Source of the DNA: Bacteroidia bacterium
GTDB taxonomy: Bacteria; Bacteroidota; Bacteroidia; B-17B0; Aurantibacillaceae
Direction of reading: 5' to 3'
Assembly (NCBI GenBank): GCA_016787785.1
Contig: JAEUTO010000006.1
Coordinates: forward strand, 372,001-436,000
Length of the DNA stretch: 64,000 bases
The position numbers were made by a program, and so were the translations under genes. The notes below the pieces were generated by a model that was not told where the DNA came from, ran no database searches, and saw only the letters and a program-made list of their open reading frames with translations. This document shows positions 5,197-12,231 of this stretch, piece after piece. The first letter of the stretch is position 1. Every line of letters begins with the position of its first letter.

Positions 5197-5595
5197 TTAT
5201 AAATTTTTAAGCATTTCTACCAAATGCTCTTTTGTTACCGGCTTTATAATGTAGTCAGTTACTTCGTTTATGTTTTTAGCCTTTTGAATATCATCAGGAG
5301 AAATGGATGAGCTAACAATATAGATCACTATTTTTTTTCCAATACGCGGTTTTAAAACAATATACTCTTCCAGAAACTGCCAACCATCCATTACAGGCAT
5401 TGAAAGGTCTAAGAGAATTACTTCTGGTAATTGGGTAGGATCATGTGAATTTTCATTAAGAAAATTAATGGCCTCTCTGCCGTTTCTAAAAACTTTTACC
5501 ATATCAACGATATTACTTTCTTCAATCGTCATTTTGGTTAAAAACACGAAGATCTCATCGTCGTCCACAAGTGCAAGATTTTTTATTTTATTCAT
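5197..5595 (-). CDS. Single-domain response regulator (CheY-like)
   Basis: The 132-residue receiver domain has no output domain. The acidic pocket is D11-D12-D13, the phosphoacceptor is D63 in LLDLSMPVMDG, the conserved Thr/Ser position lies in YIVSSS, and the conserved Lys is in DYIIKPVTK. It therefore probably passes phosphoryl signal by protein-protein contact, as CheY or Spo0F do. Its ATG overlaps the stop of the upstream histidine kinase (ATGA, 4 bases), so kinase and regulator are translationally coupled. Target unknown. Confidence 0.92.
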   Translation of the reverse strand: MNKIKNLALVDDDEIFVFLTKMTIEESNIVDMVKVFRNGREAINFLNENSHDPTQLPEVILLDLSMPVMDGWQFLEEYIVLKPRIGKKIVIYIVSSSISPDDIQKAKNINEVTDYIIKPVTKEHLVEMLKNL

Positions 5596-6716
5596 TCTAT
5601 ATTGTTTTTCGGATTAAATTCAATAGTAAACGTTGAGCCAAGATCTGGAATGCTCTCGACAAAAATTTCACCTTCCATCGCCTCTACTTGAGTTTTAGTC
5701 ATAAATAAACCATAACCTTTTGCTTCCGGATGATCATGAAATACTTTTCTCATTTTAAACATATGTTGTCCGTTTTTTTTGAGATCAATACCCGATCCAT
5801 TATCAATAACTTTTAAAACAATTTTATCGCCTTTCATTTCTGTTTTTACTTGAATGACTGGCTTTCTTGAATTGGCGCGGTATTTTAAAGCATTACTTAT
5901 TAAGTTTGACAATATGCTGTCGAGATATTTCTTAGGATAATTTATGCATTCAACAGCCTTAAAGTCAAACTGAATTGTAGCATTGTATAGTTCAATTTCA
6001 ATTCTGTGTTTTTCAATGATTTTATTTGCTAGTTCTTCAAAATTAACTTTTTCATATAAGAGGCCAACTTCTTCGCGTATCTGCAAAGATTCAACCAAAT
6101 TATTAAAAGTTTCATTCAAATTATTTACAACGGGCTTAATTTTACTAAACATCAATTCTCTTTTATCCGGGTCGTCACAGTCAGCAATAAAATCCGACAA
6201 AATAGAAAGGTTGATCAGTGGACCTCTTAAATTATGCGATATGATCCCACAAAAATCGTTTAGTTGCGTGTTTTGATTGGACAAAACTTTAATCATCTCA
6301 CTAATACTCTTGTTTGCATCATCCAGATTTTTTACCTTTACTTTTAATTCACCAACCGTTTGCTTGATAATAGTTTCCAGGTCTGTTATATTCTTTGATA
6401 CGATCCCTAATCCGTTTCCGAGTTTAAATGCCTTTATTCTAAAACATACTTCCTTATTGTTTGACCAGGCTTTTAATTCGTCTATTATGAGTGTTTTTCC
6501 GGTTTTAATAACATTCATATAAGCTTCATACCGACCGCTAGCAATAGAATCAGGTGAAACATCACGAATATTCCTACCTATCAGTTTATCACGTTCAAGA
6601 TTAAATAATTTTAAAGTAGCTTTATTAACATCAATGCAATTAAGGTCCTTATCATAGATAGAAAAAAGCACATCGGCTTCTTCAAAAAAAAGTAATCTTA
6701 ATTCGTCGTTGGTCAT
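5592..6716 (-). CDS. PAS-domain sensor histidine kinase
   Basis: The 374-residue kinase has no transmembrane segment, so it is cytoplasmic. An N-terminal PAS domain spans about 1-115. A coiled linker with a HisKA-like region follows, with phosphoacceptor H161 in IISHNLRGPL. The HATPase_c domain shows the N box (SNLISNALKYR, N275), the G1 box (DNGSGID near 305-311) and the G2 box (KGYGLFMTK near 333). It overlaps the downstream receiver gene by 4 bases, giving a complete two-component pair. The input signal sensed by the PAS domain cannot be read from sequence. Confidence 0.92.
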   Translation of the reverse strand: MTNDELRLLFFEEADVLFSIYDKDLNCIDVNKATLKLFNLERDKLIGRNIRDVSPDSIASGRYEAYMNVIKTGKTLIIDELKAWSNNKEVCFRIKAFKLGNGLGIVSKNITDLETIIKQTVGELKVKVKNLDDANKSISEMIKVLSNQNTQLNDFCGIISHNLRGPLINLSILSDFIADCDDPDKRELMFSKIKPVVNNLNETFNNLVESLQIREEVGLLYEKVNFEELANKIIEKHRIEIELYNATIQFDFKAVECINYPKKYLDSILSNLISNALKYRANSRKPVIQVKTEMKGDKIVLKVIDNGSGIDLKKNGQHMFKMRKVFHDHPEAKGYGLFMTKTQVEAMEGEIFVESIPDLGSTFTIEFNPKNNIE

Positions 6717-7102: not shown

Positions 7103-7618
7103 ATGAAACTCTCCATTAACGAACCGTGTCACGAAAATTGGGATAAAATGACACCCAATGATAAAGGCGCTTTTTGCCTCTCTTGTCAAAAAAATGTAGT
7201 TGATTTTAGTAGCAAAACCCTCACTCAAATAAAAGATTTTTTTAAGAAAAAAGCAGGTAACGAATCTGTTTGCGGCCGTTTTGAAGAAGGCCAGTTAGAG
7301 GCGTTGACCTTTGATGATTTCTTTCAAAAATTTTTGCAGTGGAAATATTTTCAAAAGGCAGCGTTGATCGTGTTTTTTGTTTTTGGTTTTAGTTTATTTG
7401 CCGGCGCGCAAACACATCCAAAAGATATTCCAAGAATAAGAATGGGTACAGTTGCTTACGTTCCTCACGATACTACCAAAGTAGTTTGTAAACAAGATAC
7501 AACCGAAAAGCCAATGATAAAAGGCAAAATAAAGGTTCAGCCTAATGGAGATCAAATAAAGCCAAAAAACAAAAGGCAAATGGACGAGCCTTTAACAGAA
7601 GACAAAAATGCCAAATAA
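7103..7618 (+). CDS. Cys/His-rich N-domain membrane protein, cassette copy 1
   Basis: First of five tandem paralogues; 171 residues. Residues 1-75 form the shared domain with C9-H10, W12, C25-x-x-C28, VVDF at 32-35 and C57 in VCGRF, a plausible zinc-ribbon-like site. A hydrophobic segment at about 85-100 ends in AGAQ (100-103), exactly like a type I signal-peptide cleavage site, though it lies deep inside the protein. The tail carries MGTVAYV, a DTT-rich stretch and a Lys-rich end. I know this N-terminal motif from Bacteroidota proteins, sometimes fused to TonB-like or regulatory domains; its function is not established to my knowledge. Likely topology is N-domain in the cytoplasm and tail in the periplasm. 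Confidence 0.8.
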   Translation: MKLSINEPCHENWDKMTPNDKGAFCLSCQKNVVDFSSKTLTQIKDFFKKKAGNESVCGRFEEGQLEALTFDDFFQKFLQWKYFQKAALIVFFVFGFSLFAGAQTHPKDIPRIRMGTVAYVPHDTTKVVCKQDTTEKPMIKGKIKVQPNGDQIKPKNKRQMDEPLTEDKNAK

Positions 7619-7652
7619 TTTTGTAAATTAGATACTATAAAATAATTGTTAT

Positions 7653-8171
7653 ATGAAAATTTCAATTAACGAACCTTGCCACGAGAACTGGGATAAAATG
7701 ACGCCAAACGATAAGGGCGCATTTTGTTTATCATGTCAAAAAAATGTTATTGACTTTAGCAGCAAGAGCATTGCGCAGATAAAAGATTTTTTCAGAAAGA
7801 AAACAAGTTCAGAGTCGGTTTGTGGTCGCTTCGAAGAACACCAGTTAGATGCACTCACCTTTGACGATTTTTTCGCACGTTTCCGATCCTGGAAATTTAT
7901 ACAAAAAGCTGCATTAGTTGTATTCTTTGTTTTTGGTTTAAGTTTATTTGGTTGCGCGCAAAGCCATCCGGATATACAAGAACCTGTTATGGGCAAAGTT
8001 GCTTACATTCCAAAAAAGGATACCACAAAAAAATGCGTGAAGGATACAACGCATAAAGCCCCGATCAAGGGTAGGGTATCAACAACTAAAACAAAACAAC
8101 CAAAAAAGAAAAAAGATCCGGAGCCTCCGAAGCTAATGGGAGAAATAATGACGGAGGATAAACAAAAATAA
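7653..8171 (+). CDS. Cys/His-rich N-domain membrane protein, cassette copy 2
   Basis: Second paralogue, 172 residues, 34 bases after copy 1. The N-domain retains C9, H10, W12, C25, C28 and C57. The membrane segment ends LFGCAQ (98-103), so it could read as a lipobox with Cys 101 or as a signal-peptidase I site before Gln. The tail has MGKVAYI, DTTKKCVKDTTHKAP and a Lys/Pro-rich run, then ends in GEIMTEDKQK. Tail and N-domain are closest to copy 3, suggesting the most recent duplication in the set. Function unknown. Confidence 0.8.
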   Translation: MKISINEPCHENWDKMTPNDKGAFCLSCQKNVIDFSSKSIAQIKDFFRKKTSSESVCGRFEEHQLDALTFDDFFARFRSWKFIQKAALVVFFVFGLSLFGCAQSHPDIQEPVMGKVAYIPKKDTTKKCVKDTTHKAPIKGRVSTTKTKQPKKKKDPEPPKLMGEIMTEDKQK

Positions 8172-8186
8172 TTTAAAAAGAGCATC

Positions 8187-8702
8187 ATGCAAATTTCAAT
8201 CAATAAACCCTGCCACGAGAACTGGGATAAAATGTCACCAAATGATAAAGGTGCATTTTGTCTGTCTTGCCAAAAGAATGTTGTTGACTTTAGCAACAAA
8301 ACTGTTTCGCAGATAAAAGATTTTTTCAGAAAGAAAACAGATACAGAATCTGTTTGTGGTCGTTTTGAAGAGGATCAATTAACCGAAATGAGCTTTGATC
8401 ATTTTTTTGAGCAATTCAGATCGTGGAAATATTTTCAGAAGTTTGCTTTAATTGCTTTTTTTGTTTTTGGTTTTAATTTATTTACAAGTGCGCAAACAGG
8501 TAGTAATACCAAACATATAAAAATGGGCAAAGTTGCGTATGTTGAAACCGATACGACAAAAAAATGTGTGAAAGATACAACGCACAAAGCGCCTGTTAAA
8601 GGCAAAACTTCTGGCACAAAAACAAAAGAACCAAAAAAGAAAAAGAAAGAACAAGGCCCCATCTTGATGGGTGATGTAATGGTTGAAGAAGATAAAAAAT
8701 AA
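8187..8702 (+). CDS. Cys/His-rich N-domain membrane protein, cassette copy 3
   Basis: Third paralogue, 171 residues, 15 bases after copy 2. The conserved Cys/His set (C9, H10, C25, C28, C57) is intact. The membrane segment ends TSAQ (100-103), a signal-peptidase I-like site without a lipobox Cys. The tail repeats MGKVAYVETDTTKKC and KDTTHKAPVKGK nearly as in copy 2 and ends GDVMVEEDKK. The repeated T/K-rich words suggest an extended, low-complexity extracytoplasmic tail rather than a folded enzyme. Function unknown. Confidence 0.8.
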   Translation: MQISINKPCHENWDKMSPNDKGAFCLSCQKNVVDFSNKTVSQIKDFFRKKTDTESVCGRFEEDQLTEMSFDHFFEQFRSWKYFQKFALIAFFVFGFNLFTSAQTGSNTKHIKMGKVAYVETDTTKKCVKDTTHKAPVKGKTSGTKTKEPKKKKKEQGPILMGDVMVEEDKK

Positions 8703-8719
8703 ATTTAAGACGCTTTAAT

Positions 8720-9265
8720 ATGAAAATTTCAATTAACGAACCCTGCCATGAAGATTGGGGTAAGATGACCCCCAATGAAAAAGGGGCATTTTGTTTAGCT
8801 TGTCAAAAAACAGTGGTTGATTTTAGCAAGAAGACCATTGACGAAATTAAAACGTTTTTTGTGCAAAAACCTGCTGCCGAAAGTGTTTGTGGAAGATTCA
8901 GGAATAAACAATTACGTGAATTGAGTTTTGACGAATTTATAAACGAGTTTATGAGTTGGAAATTCTTAAAGCGCGCTGCGGTAATTTGTTTTTTAGTGTT
9001 GGGTACTACGTTATTTAGCAGTTGTTCTAGTGAAGAGAAAGAGAAACAGAAACAGGGCGAGGAGGAGAATTACGAGCACACTGCAGGCGTTGTTGCAATT
9101 GATACAACATTTAAGACGCTTCCGACAGATACTTTTTCCAGCGATCCACCAAAAATGGTTAAGGATACTGTAAGGACGAAAAAGGCCGCAAAAGAAACAA
9201 AGAAACAAAAAGAAAAGTCGCAACAAGTAGAAATTCATACGAAAGGTGATGTTGCTGTTAATTAA
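8720..9265 (+). CDS. Cys/His-rich N-domain membrane protein, cassette copy 4 with lipobox-like site
   Basis: Fourth paralogue, 181 residues, 17 bases after copy 3. The N-domain keeps C9, H10, C25, C28 and C57. The hydrophobic segment (about 85-100) ends LFSSC (98-102) followed by SSEE, a textbook Bacteroidota lipobox but at residue 102 instead of about 20. The tail is Glu/Lys-rich with DTTF, DTF and DTVR words and ends in HTKGDVAVN. If signal peptidase II cleaves at C102, the tail would be released as a lipoprotein and the Cys/His domain left in the cytoplasm; that is inference. Confidence 0.8.
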   Translation: MKISINEPCHEDWGKMTPNEKGAFCLACQKTVVDFSKKTIDEIKTFFVQKPAAESVCGRFRNKQLRELSFDEFINEFMSWKFLKRAAVICFLVLGTTLFSSCSSEEKEKQKQGEEENYEHTAGVVAIDTTFKTLPTDTFSSDPPKMVKDTVRTKKAAKETKKQKEKSQQVEIHTKGDVAVN

Positions 9266-9276
9266 ATAAGATCACA

Positions 9277-9858
9277 ATGAAAATTACGATTAAAGAACCC
9301 TGTCACGAAAATTGGAATAACATGGCGCCAAATGATAAGGGCGCTTTTTGTTTATCCTGTAAAAAGAACGTAGTTGATTTTAGTAAAAAAACAATTGATG
9401 AAGTAAAAACATTTTTCACAGAATTACCTATAACCGAACGTGTTTGCGGACGTTTTAAAGAAGCTCAACTGAACGAAATGAACTTCGATCATTTTTTAAA
9501 TGAGTTCATGTCCTGGAAATTAGTACAAAAAGCAGCAATAATTTGTTTTTTTGTTTTTGGCGCTGCATTATTTAGCGGCTGTTCCAACTCCAATGATCAT
9601 GTTGTTGGAGAGATGATAGTTGTACCTGATACTTTAAAACAAAACCCACCTCCGCTGGATAGCATTAAGGATACAACAATGTTGTTAGGTGAACCGGCGA
9701 TGGAAAAGGATACAGTGTGCACAAGCGAAGTAAAAGAGACTGGAAAAATTGGTAATAACAGATCAAAGCATTTAATGGGCGGGTCAATGGTTTTAAGGGA
9801 TACAGCTGCTACGCATTTAAAGGGCAATATTAAGGTTGTCCCTGAAGAAAAAAAATAA
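9277..9858 (+). CDS. Cys/His-rich N-domain membrane protein, cassette copy 5 with lipobox-like site
   Basis: Last and longest paralogue, 193 residues, 11 bases after copy 4. C9, H10, W12, C25, C28 and C57 are conserved, with CKKNVVDF replacing CQKNVVDF. The hydrophobic segment ends LFSGC (98-102) then SNSND, again lipobox-like. The tail has several D-T words (VVPDTLK, KDTTML, KDTVC, RDTAAT) and ends GNIKVVPEEKK, echoing the ends of the other copies. The cassette finishes at a nested hairpin. Function unknown. Confidence 0.8.
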   Translation: MKITIKEPCHENWNNMAPNDKGAFCLSCKKNVVDFSKKTIDEVKTFFTELPITERVCGRFKEAQLNEMNFDHFLNEFMSWKLVQKAAIICFFVFGAALFSGCSNSNDHVVGEMIVVPDTLKQNPPPLDSIKDTTMLLGEPAMEKDTVCTSEVKETGKIGNNRSKHLMGGSMVLRDTAATHLKGNIKVVPEEKK

Positions 9859-10511
9859 TCTCGTAAATATATTTTTGGCGTCACTTTTTGCTTGATCAAA
9901 AAGTAACCAAAAAATCAAGGCTTTCTTAAAATTTTTCTAAAATCTAATTTTCCTCAGGCCGATGATTTAAGCGCTTCGCGAACAGCCAAAATCATCTAGT
10001 CGCACGCCAGCGCTTTTGAAGAAAAAAGATTTTTACAAAAAATTTTAAAAGGCCGCCTCACGTGGTGTGCTTACGCGTACAGATTTTGTTTAGTTTAATT
10101 CTGCGGTTAGGTTTTTGAGTTATCCGCGCGTGGGGCAGGCAAAACGCTTGGAGTGGGCTGGGTGAATTGATTTTTTTGTAGAAAGAGGGCTGAGCGTAAA
10201 TAAAATATGCAATGCATATTTTTAGCGAAGAGCCGGCTCGTGGGTTGAAAGGCGCTTGTCGTTTAAAATTCTGTTCTTCCCATAAAAAATCGAGGAACAG
10301 AATTTTTAACTTTATTAGCCTTTCAAAAAAAATCAAGAGTGGGTGGAAAGATCGTTTTGCCTTGTCTTTTGTTGGATTTTATCCTGAGCGAAGCCGAAGG
10401 GTTTCGACTAAGGAAAAGTAAAGAAGAAAAATTGTGCCGCCACGCAAAGCTCGCTCAGATGTGTACAACACATTTGTCCTGCGTCAAAAGCGGCAAAAAA
10501 TATCTTAGATT
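9859..10511. repeat. Non-coding, inverted-repeat-rich intergenic block (about 650 bp)
   Basis: The block has local GC-rich patches unlike the flanking coding DNA and contains several inverted repeats: AAAATATGCA/TGCATATTTT (10202-10222), outer TTGAAAGGC/GCCTTTCAA (10245-10253 and 10318-10326), and inner AAAATTCTGTTC/GAACAGAATTTT (10265-10276 and 10295-10306). It also has the words CCTGAGCGAAGCCGAAGG and TTTCGACTAAGG, similar to dispersed repeats I associate with Bacteroidota genomes. Open frames on both strands show no protein-like features. It is probably a dispersed repeat or a structured RNA relic. Confidence 0.6.
9872..9913. terminator. Nested hairpin closing the five-gene cassette
   Basis: Inner arms ACTTTTTG (9883-9890) and CAAAAAGT (9897-9904) enclose the loop CTTGAT. 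Outer arms TTTTTGG (9872-9878) and CCAAAAA (9907-9913) extend the stem. It could terminate transcription in either direction. The sequence also looks like the edge of a dispersed Bacteroidota intergenic repeat. Confidence 0.55.
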
Positions 10512-10986: not shown

Positions 10987-12231
10987 TCAATGAGATTTAA
11001 TTATTTTTTGTGTAAGAATTAACTGTTCCTGTAAAACTAATTTTAAAAAATACATTCCGGAGCTTAGTCCCTCCAGAGGAATCGAATTGTTATTTTCTTT
11101 CAAAATTTGTGTACTGACTAAACGGCCACTGAGATCGGTAATAACAGCACTACAGTCTAACAAATTATTTTCAATTGAAACAGTTAACTGATCAGAAACC
11201 GGGTTTGGGTACACTTTAATTTTCTCCAGAGTATTTTCATTGATACTAGTTGAAGTAGCAAGACCGCCAGCTAACCAAATAGTAATGTTCATTAACAAGC
11301 GTTGGTGATTGCCACCAGCATCAACAATGTAACCATTATATAAAACGTCGTTCGGATCCCCTGTTGCATCATCCGGCGGAGAGCTATCGCCAATAGCTGC
11401 AACTTTTCCGTTTCCAACACGCGAATAGGCGCATAATACATTTGTGTTTCCAAAACCCAAACCTGATTTATAAATTACACCTTTTACGCTTGGGTTTTGT
11501 AATGGATTTAACGACATGGTTGTACCACCCGACCATTTTACCTGGCTAACATTTCCCATTGGTCCATGCAATATAGAATCGTTTGGTGAATTCAGAACGG
11601 TTGAACTTGTTTGTGAAAAATTTGCAAGATCAAAGGTAAATCCGACAGCGTTATTTGAAACACCATTATTTGTAATAAGATCATTCCAAATATCTGGTGA
11701 ATCGTTTCCGTCAAAATTCCTGTCACTTACAGTGTGGTCGGCGATCATAAATAAACTACCGCCATTTTGCACAAAATTAATAATTGCGCTTTTTTCGGAG
11801 GCGGTAAAAATTATATTAGGCTCGCAAACAATGTAAACTTTATAGTTACTTAGATCTTGCGGATTAGATACGTTACCGTAGGTTATCTGACCATTATACG
11901 GCAAGGTTTCAACCTGATAACCTTTTTTTACGCAGTCAATTCCCCAGTAAGAAAGGGCGCCAGTCCAAAATGTTTCAGGGGTTGAAGCGGTAATTAAAGT
12001 TTGTGATGGGGTAGGGTAGCGCTGTGCATTGGCTTGATTATTTGAAGAGGATACAGTTGCATTTGGATTCCATTTTAAATTCCACTGATCTGCATCAATT
12101 ACCCAATCTGCATTTCCCGAAGTTTCCGCCTTTTTTGCATCAAACAAGATTTTAATAGTTGGCTGGCAGAATGAATTAAGTATGAATACAAGATTAAAAA
12201 TTATTAGAAAATTATATTTATTAAATTTCAT
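10987..12231 (-). CDS. T9SS-secreted protein with amidotransferase-like N-domain and type A sorting domain
   Basis: The 414-residue product has a signal peptide (FLIIFNLVFILNSFCQ). The central region (about 40-320) contains KVYIVCEPN, NFVQNGGSLFMIADH and RVGNGKVAAIGDSSPPDD, resembling the DUF4350 or ThuA class of glutamine-amidotransferase-like folds seen in extracellular proteins. The C-terminal about 75 residues form a type A T9SS sorting domain: KVYPNPVSDQLTVSI, ITDLSGRLVS, GLSSGMYFLKL and a basic end. It is therefore exported through the outer membrane and probably surface-attached. Enzymatic activity is uncertain. Confidence 0.85.
   Translation of the reverse strand: MKFNKYNFLIIFNLVFILNSFCQPTIKILFDAKKAETSGNADWVIDADQWNLKWNPNATVSSSNNQANAQRYPTPSQTLITASTPETFWTGALSYWGIDCVKKGYQVETLPYNGQITYGNVSNPQDLSNYKVYIVCEPNIIFTASEKSAIINFVQNGGSLFMIADHTVSDRNFDGNDSPDIWNDLITNNGVSNNAVGFTFDLANFSQTSSTVLNSPNDSILHGPMGNVSQVKWSGGTTMSLNPLQNPSVKGVIYKSGLGFGNTNVLCAYSRVGNGKVAAIGDSSPPDDATGDPNDVLYNGYIVDAGGNHQRLLMNITIWLAGGLATSTSINENTLEKIKVYPNPVSDQLTVSIENNLLDCSAVITDLSGRLVSTQILKENNNSIPLEGLSSGMYFLKLVLQEQLILTQKIIKSH

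Follow-up and report, generated by a model that had tools for sequence, protein, structure and literature searches.

A five-gene array and its four-cysteine domain

The window analysed here is a stretch of 64,000 nucleotides from the 4.6 Mb genome of a Bacteroidia bacterium (assembly GCA_016787785.1, contig JAEUTO010000006.1, positions 372,001 to 436,000), and our subject is an array of five related genes within it. Reading of the open reading frames (ORFs) placed five consecutive ATG-initiated genes on the + strand at 7103-9858, bearing out the five tandem same-strand paralogues named in a preliminary description of this DNA. The products of genes 2 to 5 are 46-65% identical to that of gene 1, and alignment of the five revealed a conserved stretch of the first ~75 residues followed by tails that are, as had been described, variable and charged. 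Residues invariant across all five proteins include C9, H10, W13, C25, C28, D34, F35, C57 and G58-R59-F60, among others. The alignment thus upheld the nearly invariant N-domain proposed earlier, with two corrections: the tryptophan is W13 rather than W12, and VVDF is not kept throughout (gene 2 has VIDF). The intergenic gaps are 34, 15, 17 and 11 bases in order, which is not the steady decrease from 34 to 11 that had been claimed. The features of the array are as follows.

7103-7618, + strand: array gene 1, 171 aa; four-cysteine (Cys4) domain, hydrophobic segment, signal peptidase I (SPase I)-like site GAQ, charged tail
7103-7306, + strand: Cys4 N-domain of gene 1, residues 1-68, with C9, C25, C28 and C57 (alignment; AlphaFold2 (AF2) secondary structure)
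7358-7402, + strand: hydrophobic core of gene 1, signal-like, residues 86-100
7409-7411, + strand: Gln103 of gene 1, N-terminus predicted after SPase I cleavage (Q-rule; from the sequence and PMC5837995)
7653-8171, + strand: array gene 2, 172 aa; site LFGCAQ, lipobox-like and A-Q at once
7653-7856, + strand: Cys4 N-domain of gene 2, residues 1-68 (alignment)
7908-7952, + strand: hydrophobic core of gene 2, equivalent of residues 86-100 by alignment
7953-7955, + strand: Cys101 of gene 2, possibly lipidated, with Gln103 two residues on (sequence)
8187-8702, + strand: array gene 3, 171 aa; TSAQ, an SPase I-like site
8187-8390, + strand: Cys4 N-domain of gene 3, residues 1-68 (alignment)
8442-8486, + strand: hydrophobic core of gene 3, equivalent of residues 86-100 by alignment
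8493-8495, + strand: Gln103 of gene 3, predicted new N-terminus (sequence)
8720-9265, + strand: array gene 4, 181 aa; FSSC, lipobox-like
8720-8923, + strand: Cys4 N-domain of gene 4, residues 1-68 (alignment)
8975-9019, + strand: hydrophobic core of gene 4, equivalent of residues 86-100 by alignment
9023-9025, + strand: Cys102 of gene 4, predicted lipidated (sequence)
9277-9858, + strand: array gene 5, 193 aa; FSGC, lipobox-like
9277-9480, + strand: Cys4 N-domain of gene 5, residues 1-68 (alignment)
9532-9576, + strand: hydrophobic core of gene 5, equivalent of residues 86-100 by alignment
9580-9582, + strand: Cys102 of gene 5, predicted lipidated (sequence)

Ratios of nonsynonymous to synonymous substitution (dN/dS) were calculated for eight pairs of close orthologues. 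In five of them the N-domain had a dN/dS of about 0.02-0.07, the hydrophobic part (residues 69-103) 0-0.11 and the tail 0.15-0.46; the remaining three pairs, all with locus L069, were dropped for saturation of dS in one part or more, and the single pair among them with a finite N-domain dS gave an N-domain dN/dS of about 0.18. Because dN/dS of the N-domain is low between close orthologues, the array ORFs are real, constrained genes, and chance or decayed ORFs are ruled out. The domain and the putative signal evolve slowly, and the tail, the predicted exported cargo, evolves fast.

A scan of bacterial and archaeal genomes returned at least 488 stretches with relatives, and among the matches listed we kept 78 loci, mostly from Flavobacterium, Chitinophagaceae and uncultured Bacteroidetes. 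The search patterns behind these loci contained CHE-W, so that His10 appears conserved in that set; a divergent set of 68 representatives, obtained by single-protein and profile searches, is free of this bias. All 259 family members with a length of 105 residues or more had the four cysteines, and 247 of them had no further cysteine in the domain; the members had been pre-selected for CxxC, and the outer two cysteines, which lay outside that selection, were sought in 11- and 26-residue windows. They were also invariant in an alignment of 22 diverse sequences. His follows the first cysteine in just 22 of the 68 divergent representatives, the others having Ser, Thr, Asn or other residues; therefore H10 is no general ligand and no family feature, and a ligand role for His is not supported. 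The proposal of a metal-binding or thiol device survives in its cysteine part: metal binding is plausible because the Cys domain is conserved across Bacteroidota. A profile search found the N-domain in 54 of 395 sampled genomes of the phylum, in agreement with the earlier statement that it is known from scattered Bacteroidota.

No curated family in the searched libraries covers the N-domain. The Pfam scan of the five array proteins gave no match, neither to FecR or TonB_C nor to any tail family, and neither Pfam (with the 22 diverse N-domains) nor NCBIfam yielded a clear profile match to known zinc-ribbon families. Single weak Pfam matches among the 22 were to zf-C3HC4_3 (E 0.035), DZR_2 (E 0.075), Zn_ribbon_11 (E 0.13) and Fer2 (E 0.008); NCBIfam matches were sub-threshold (E 0.003-0.34, genes 2 and 4), and the best PHROGs match to the N-domain (E 0.014) was unusably weak. 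Nothing significant was found in the PDB, where the best sequence match had E 0.059, the best fold matches had E 5.2 and 2.8, and none of 37 chains reached Z 2 in fold comparison. The AF2 models were of low to moderate confidence (mean predicted local distance difference test (pLDDT) 68 and 74); the domain model (pLDDT 74, predicted template modelling score 0.56) has helices at 18-27, 40-49 and 62-69 and strands at 32-34 and 57-59. No description of the domain turned up among the matches listed by searches of open PubMed Central. A defence system was set aside after PADLOC gave no match for genes 1, 4 and 5 and the relative L006.

A variant of the Cys4 domain at the Bacteroidota locus L237 (1971-2420) is followed by a CVRFYRRADGT..DCPVG stretch, and this domain, used as query, found matches in 12 of 99 phylum-sample genomes. 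Proteins similar to this variant occur in other phyla. By tblastn the variant led to a relative made up of the domain alone, on a plasmid of Calothrix (locus L260, 2447-2770), namely protein BAY66975.1 of Calothrix brevissima NIES-22, which has the same Cys pattern (profile E 2e-11, where the best of 200 shuffled sequences reached 0.58) and differs from the array proteins in having neither a hydrophobic segment nor an exported tail. This relative shows that the predicted Cys4 domain can stand alone.

A signal-like segment in mid-chain

Directly past the hydrophobic segment, the array proteins carry GAQ and SAQ (genes 1 and 3), GCAQ (gene 2) and SSC and SGC (genes 4 and 5). We scored family members for either a lipobox core (PROSITE PS51257 pattern) or [AVSTGLI]-x-[AGS]-Q directly past the most hydrophobic 15-residue window, dropping proteins of fewer than 118 aa, keeping 199 unique ones and choosing representatives at 60% identity. 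The motif was found in 191 of the 199 members and in 54 of the 60 representatives, and was of the lipobox type in 128 of the 199. Other genes of the same loci gave 9 of 132 for internal membrane segments and 64 of 132 for hydrophobic segments at the N-terminus. Of 17 FecR anti-sigma factors, which span the membrane once with the N-terminus inside, one had the motif; of four other anti-sigma-like proteins (the YHKG group) none had it, and of 30 TonB_C hosts seven, six of these at N-terminal signal peptides. For at least two of the 30 hosts (L167 and L173) the frame used was a wrong, longer one.

The motif was also present in 54 of the 68 divergent representatives, which were found without the CHE-W pattern and from which nine short ORFs and two fragments lacking CxxC had been excluded; the 199-member and 68-representative sets share loci L001-L067 and are not independent. 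With both sets pooled, 234 of 259 members carry the motif, and in the 259 the hydrophobic window stops at residue 87-156 (median 101). Net charge averages +1.95 over the 12 residues upstream of the segment and +0.73 downstream. It has been reported (PMC5837995) that Gln is the new N-terminus of SPase I substrates of Bacteroidetes in a mean of 71% across species, and PMC10653852 likewise treats Q-rule substrates of this enzyme. Because the frequency of the lipobox or A-Q motif is far above that of the internal-segment and FecR controls, the hydrophobic segment is better read, from sequence statistics, as a signal sequence open to cleavage than as a simple anchor in the membrane. The membrane protein of the preliminary description is accordingly retained in part: the segment is there, and the motif statistics favour a cleavable signal over a plain anchor.

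Natural variants that lack the domain point in the same direction. At five Flavobacterium loci (L110, L115, L124, L128 and L143) the gene after an array member has no Cys domain; these paralogues align to a full family member from residue 73-87 on (best E 4e-73 to 2e-81) and open with a normal-length, lipoprotein-like N-terminal signal in which the lipobox is retained. Absence of the domain with retention of the export signal is as expected if the segment works alone as a signal.

Among 140 full-length relatives, Pfam recognised a TonB_C tail in 45, a CarboxypepD_reg tail in 23 and a type IX secretion system (T9SS) sorting domain in 14 (NCBIfam also 14). All three are extracytoplasmic tail types. 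By simple motifs, a lipobox precedes 65 of 67 TonB_C-like tails, and A-Q precedes 10 of 17 T9SS-like tails, with both types in two more; the CarboxypepD_reg motif caught none, and such tails were counted as 'other' in this motif-based tally.

Proposed export precursors and competing explanations

We consider it reasonably probable, judging from the sequences, that the array genes encode precursors of exported proteins or lipoproteins in which a cytoplasmic Cys4 domain, probably binding zinc, precedes a cleavable signal peptide. Residues 1 to ~70 would form a cytoplasmic domain with four cysteines that most likely binds zinc, and residues ~80-103 would act as a Sec signal sequence inserted with the N-terminus inside and the C-terminus outside, as the motif statistics and the natural domain-less paralogues suggest. 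In genes 1 and 3 the cut would then be made by signal peptidase I ahead of Gln, in genes 4 and 5 by signal peptidase II (SPase II) at the Cys of the lipobox; gene 2 would offer both types of site. The fast-evolving tail would be set free in the periplasm or, as a lipoprotein, stay anchored, and a remnant of ~100 residues, consisting of the Cys4 domain and the hydrophobic segment, may remain in the inner membrane.

Several known systems share parts of this layout. Like bacterial lipoproteins processed by SPase II, genes 4 and 5 have a lipobox Cys after a hydrophobic core; in lipoproteins this Cys normally lies at about residue 15-40, and in genes 4 and 5 it is residue 102, with the domain-less paralogues showing the normal position. 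The extended signal peptide region of type V secreted proteins is a short extension ahead of the signal core, and resembles the array in adding a conserved stretch there, which in the array is a Cys4 domain of ~70 residues. Genes 1 and 3 and many relatives share with Q-rule SPase I substrates (PMC5837995, PMC10653852) a hydrophobic core followed by small-x-small-Gln; the array signal differs in lying ~80 residues in, behind a conserved Cys domain, and not at the extreme N-terminus, and its cleavage is a prediction.

What is new is a signal-like hydrophobic segment in mid-chain, behind a Cys4 domain, in a layout common to many unnamed Bacteroidota relatives. Such a position clashes with the rule that signal peptides start proteins, and proteins of this kind are therefore prone to being labelled membrane anchors or TonB transducers. 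Should the predicted cleavage hold true, Bacteroidota would be placing a conserved folded domain ahead of an export signal, which would raise the question of metal or redox control over secretion. It is possible, although we hold this tentatively, that the Cys4 domain controls or reports the export of its own tail, for instance by metal- or thiol-dependent folding that gates Sec entry or recruits a partner. A broader and distinctly doubtful proposal is that Cys4 serves as a controllable pilot before a cleavable signal, gating many unrelated tails by metal or redox state while the membrane remnant signals, as a Bacteroidota-wide form of export control.

A number of observations weigh against precursors of this kind. 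A folded region of ~80 residues ahead of a signal peptide is unusual; the strict motif is missing in 14 of the 68 divergent representatives, several of which have A-x-A plus a residue other than Gln; and the segment of L237 resembles a plain membrane helix. TonB_C tails occur in 45 of 140 relatives, and TonB in its canonical form depends on anchoring in the inner membrane. Beside the window array no gene was recognised as a partner of the Cys4 domain, and the weak AF2 models, with no fold match in the PDB, leave the zinc site a prediction.

The main rival takes the products as uncleaved single-pass membrane sensors or transducers, anti-sigma- or TonB-like, with a cytoplasmic Cys4 sensor or partner domain, a permanent anchor and a periplasmic tail. 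We judge this unlikely. The order of parts is that of the FecR and YHKG anti-sigma-like proteins, and FecR-type factors share with the array a cytoplasmic N-domain, one hydrophobic segment (starting at about residue 73-97 in FecR) and a periplasmic part; a sigma-like gene, assigned by eye, lies near 12 loci, many of them from Chitinophagaceae. The array proteins differ from FecR-type factors in having no FecR domain. Against this rival, the single-pass anti-sigma controls mostly lack the cleavage motif, and Pfam detected no sigma factor among eight ORFs neighbouring the array, on which ground an anti-sigma partner was set aside. The TonB_C tails of the relatives and the 'energy transducer TonB' annotation on an Aureibacter plasmid also fit a permanent anchor; the five array proteins themselves carry no TonB_C in Pfam. 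Furthermore, T9SS-secreted proteins have to leave the inner membrane, and the T9SS-tailed members (14 of 140) should therefore have to exit it.

Another explanation, which we regard as clearly improbable, makes the N-domain a module of the redox (disulfide) or iron-sulphur type instead of a zinc site, with the remainder of the precursor scheme unchanged. Four conserved cysteines are compatible with such a module, and Fer2 was matched by one of the 22 N-domains, but that match is single and weak, and single weak matches of the zinc type were obtained too (E 0.035 to 0.13). In addition, CxxC plus two distant cysteines in a cytoplasmic protein is most often a zinc site.

Two products per gene, with the Cys4 domain as a cytosolic protein of its own and the tail as a normal exported protein made through an internal start or gene splitting, are very unlikely, since genes 1-3 have no Met from residue 69 to the segment and a Met within the 16 residues up to the core occurs in just 8 of 60 and 7 of 68 representatives. 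Met is in fact rarer in this stretch (0.8% and 0.6% in the two representative sets) than in the N-domain (2.3% and 2.4%), which rules out an internal start codon as a family feature. In favour of two products, Met78 of genes 4 and 5, eight residues ahead of the hydrophobic core, would open a normal-length lipoprotein signal and makes a second, shorter product possible in these two genes, and the Calothrix relative consists of the domain only. Split genes are suggested by L123 (5757-6602), where an in-frame TAG past the domain is followed three codons later by an ATG that opens a lipoprotein-like signal, and by L193 (1985-2275 plus downstream) and L194 (1982-2227 plus downstream), which stop directly past the domain; each of the three has a single in-frame stop in the linker between domain and signal, the remaining frame being open. 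L194 has also lost the fourth Cys, and L195 has an in-frame stop at the predicted mature start. These four are probably decayed genes, or, for L123, L193 and L194, the stops may mark a natural separation of the domain and signal parts.

Tandem runs, distribution and surroundings

The host genome holds seven family copies: the five of the array, a copy on contig C15 with a T9SS-like end and a small copy on C2. The count stays at seven in a profile search at E 0.1. Within the same genus 23 of 40 genomes, the host genome included, gave a match, and the nearest named match among those listed is an uncultured Bacteroidetes metagenome-assembled genome with 97% identity across the N-domain. At the 78 loci (250 hits, reduced to 248 and then to 203 unique) the largest tandem run was of one copy at 39 loci, two at 28, three at 4, four at 6 and five at 1, these sizes being minima because some loci stop at contig ends. 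A five-copy operon had been thought unusual; runs of two to five copies occur at 39 of the 78 loci, with five in Flavobacterium reichenbachii (L100), and the window array is thus the upper end of the family's ordinary tandem habit. Many Flavobacterium arrays occupy one and the same genomic position: 34 loci have two neighbour genes in common, by eye dxs and a tadA-like deaminase. The tree built from 114 N-domains had little resolution (3 of 111 branches starred), and we give little weight to the minimum of 12 changes between SPase I-like and lipobox sites counted on it.

The phage collection contained no match, also with the L237 variant as query, no relative was confirmed on viral contigs, and three plasmid records matched; a phage or mobile origin was set aside on these results. 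Plasmid pAT1 of Aureibacter tunicatorum (L065, 4381-6693) carries three tandem genes annotated 'energy transducer TonB', the last two with the Cys4 domain, and this label is possibly an over-annotation of the Cys4 family.

Directly upstream of the array, and divergent from it, lie a PAS histidine kinase (5595-6716) and a response regulator (5200-5595). Related arrays at L068, L069 and L071 have, by eye, different upstream genes, and the kinase/regulator pair is therefore no fixed partner of the array. On the downstream side follow a PepSY-like protein and one with a T9SS tail, the latter (10990-12231) a Por_Secre_tail protein in Pfam with no assigned function. Rfam gave no match in the window, and an RNA element was set aside on this ground; a promoter/terminator scan returned 10 promoter-like sites where 9.1 are expected by chance, that is, chance level. 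Just past the array, at 9883-9907, stands a palindromic 25-mer, ACTTTTTGCTTGATCAAAAAGTAAC, in single copy within the window. Nine copies occur in the genome at up to three mismatches, against none for the reversed control, and the 25-mer looks like a dispersed intergenic repeat.

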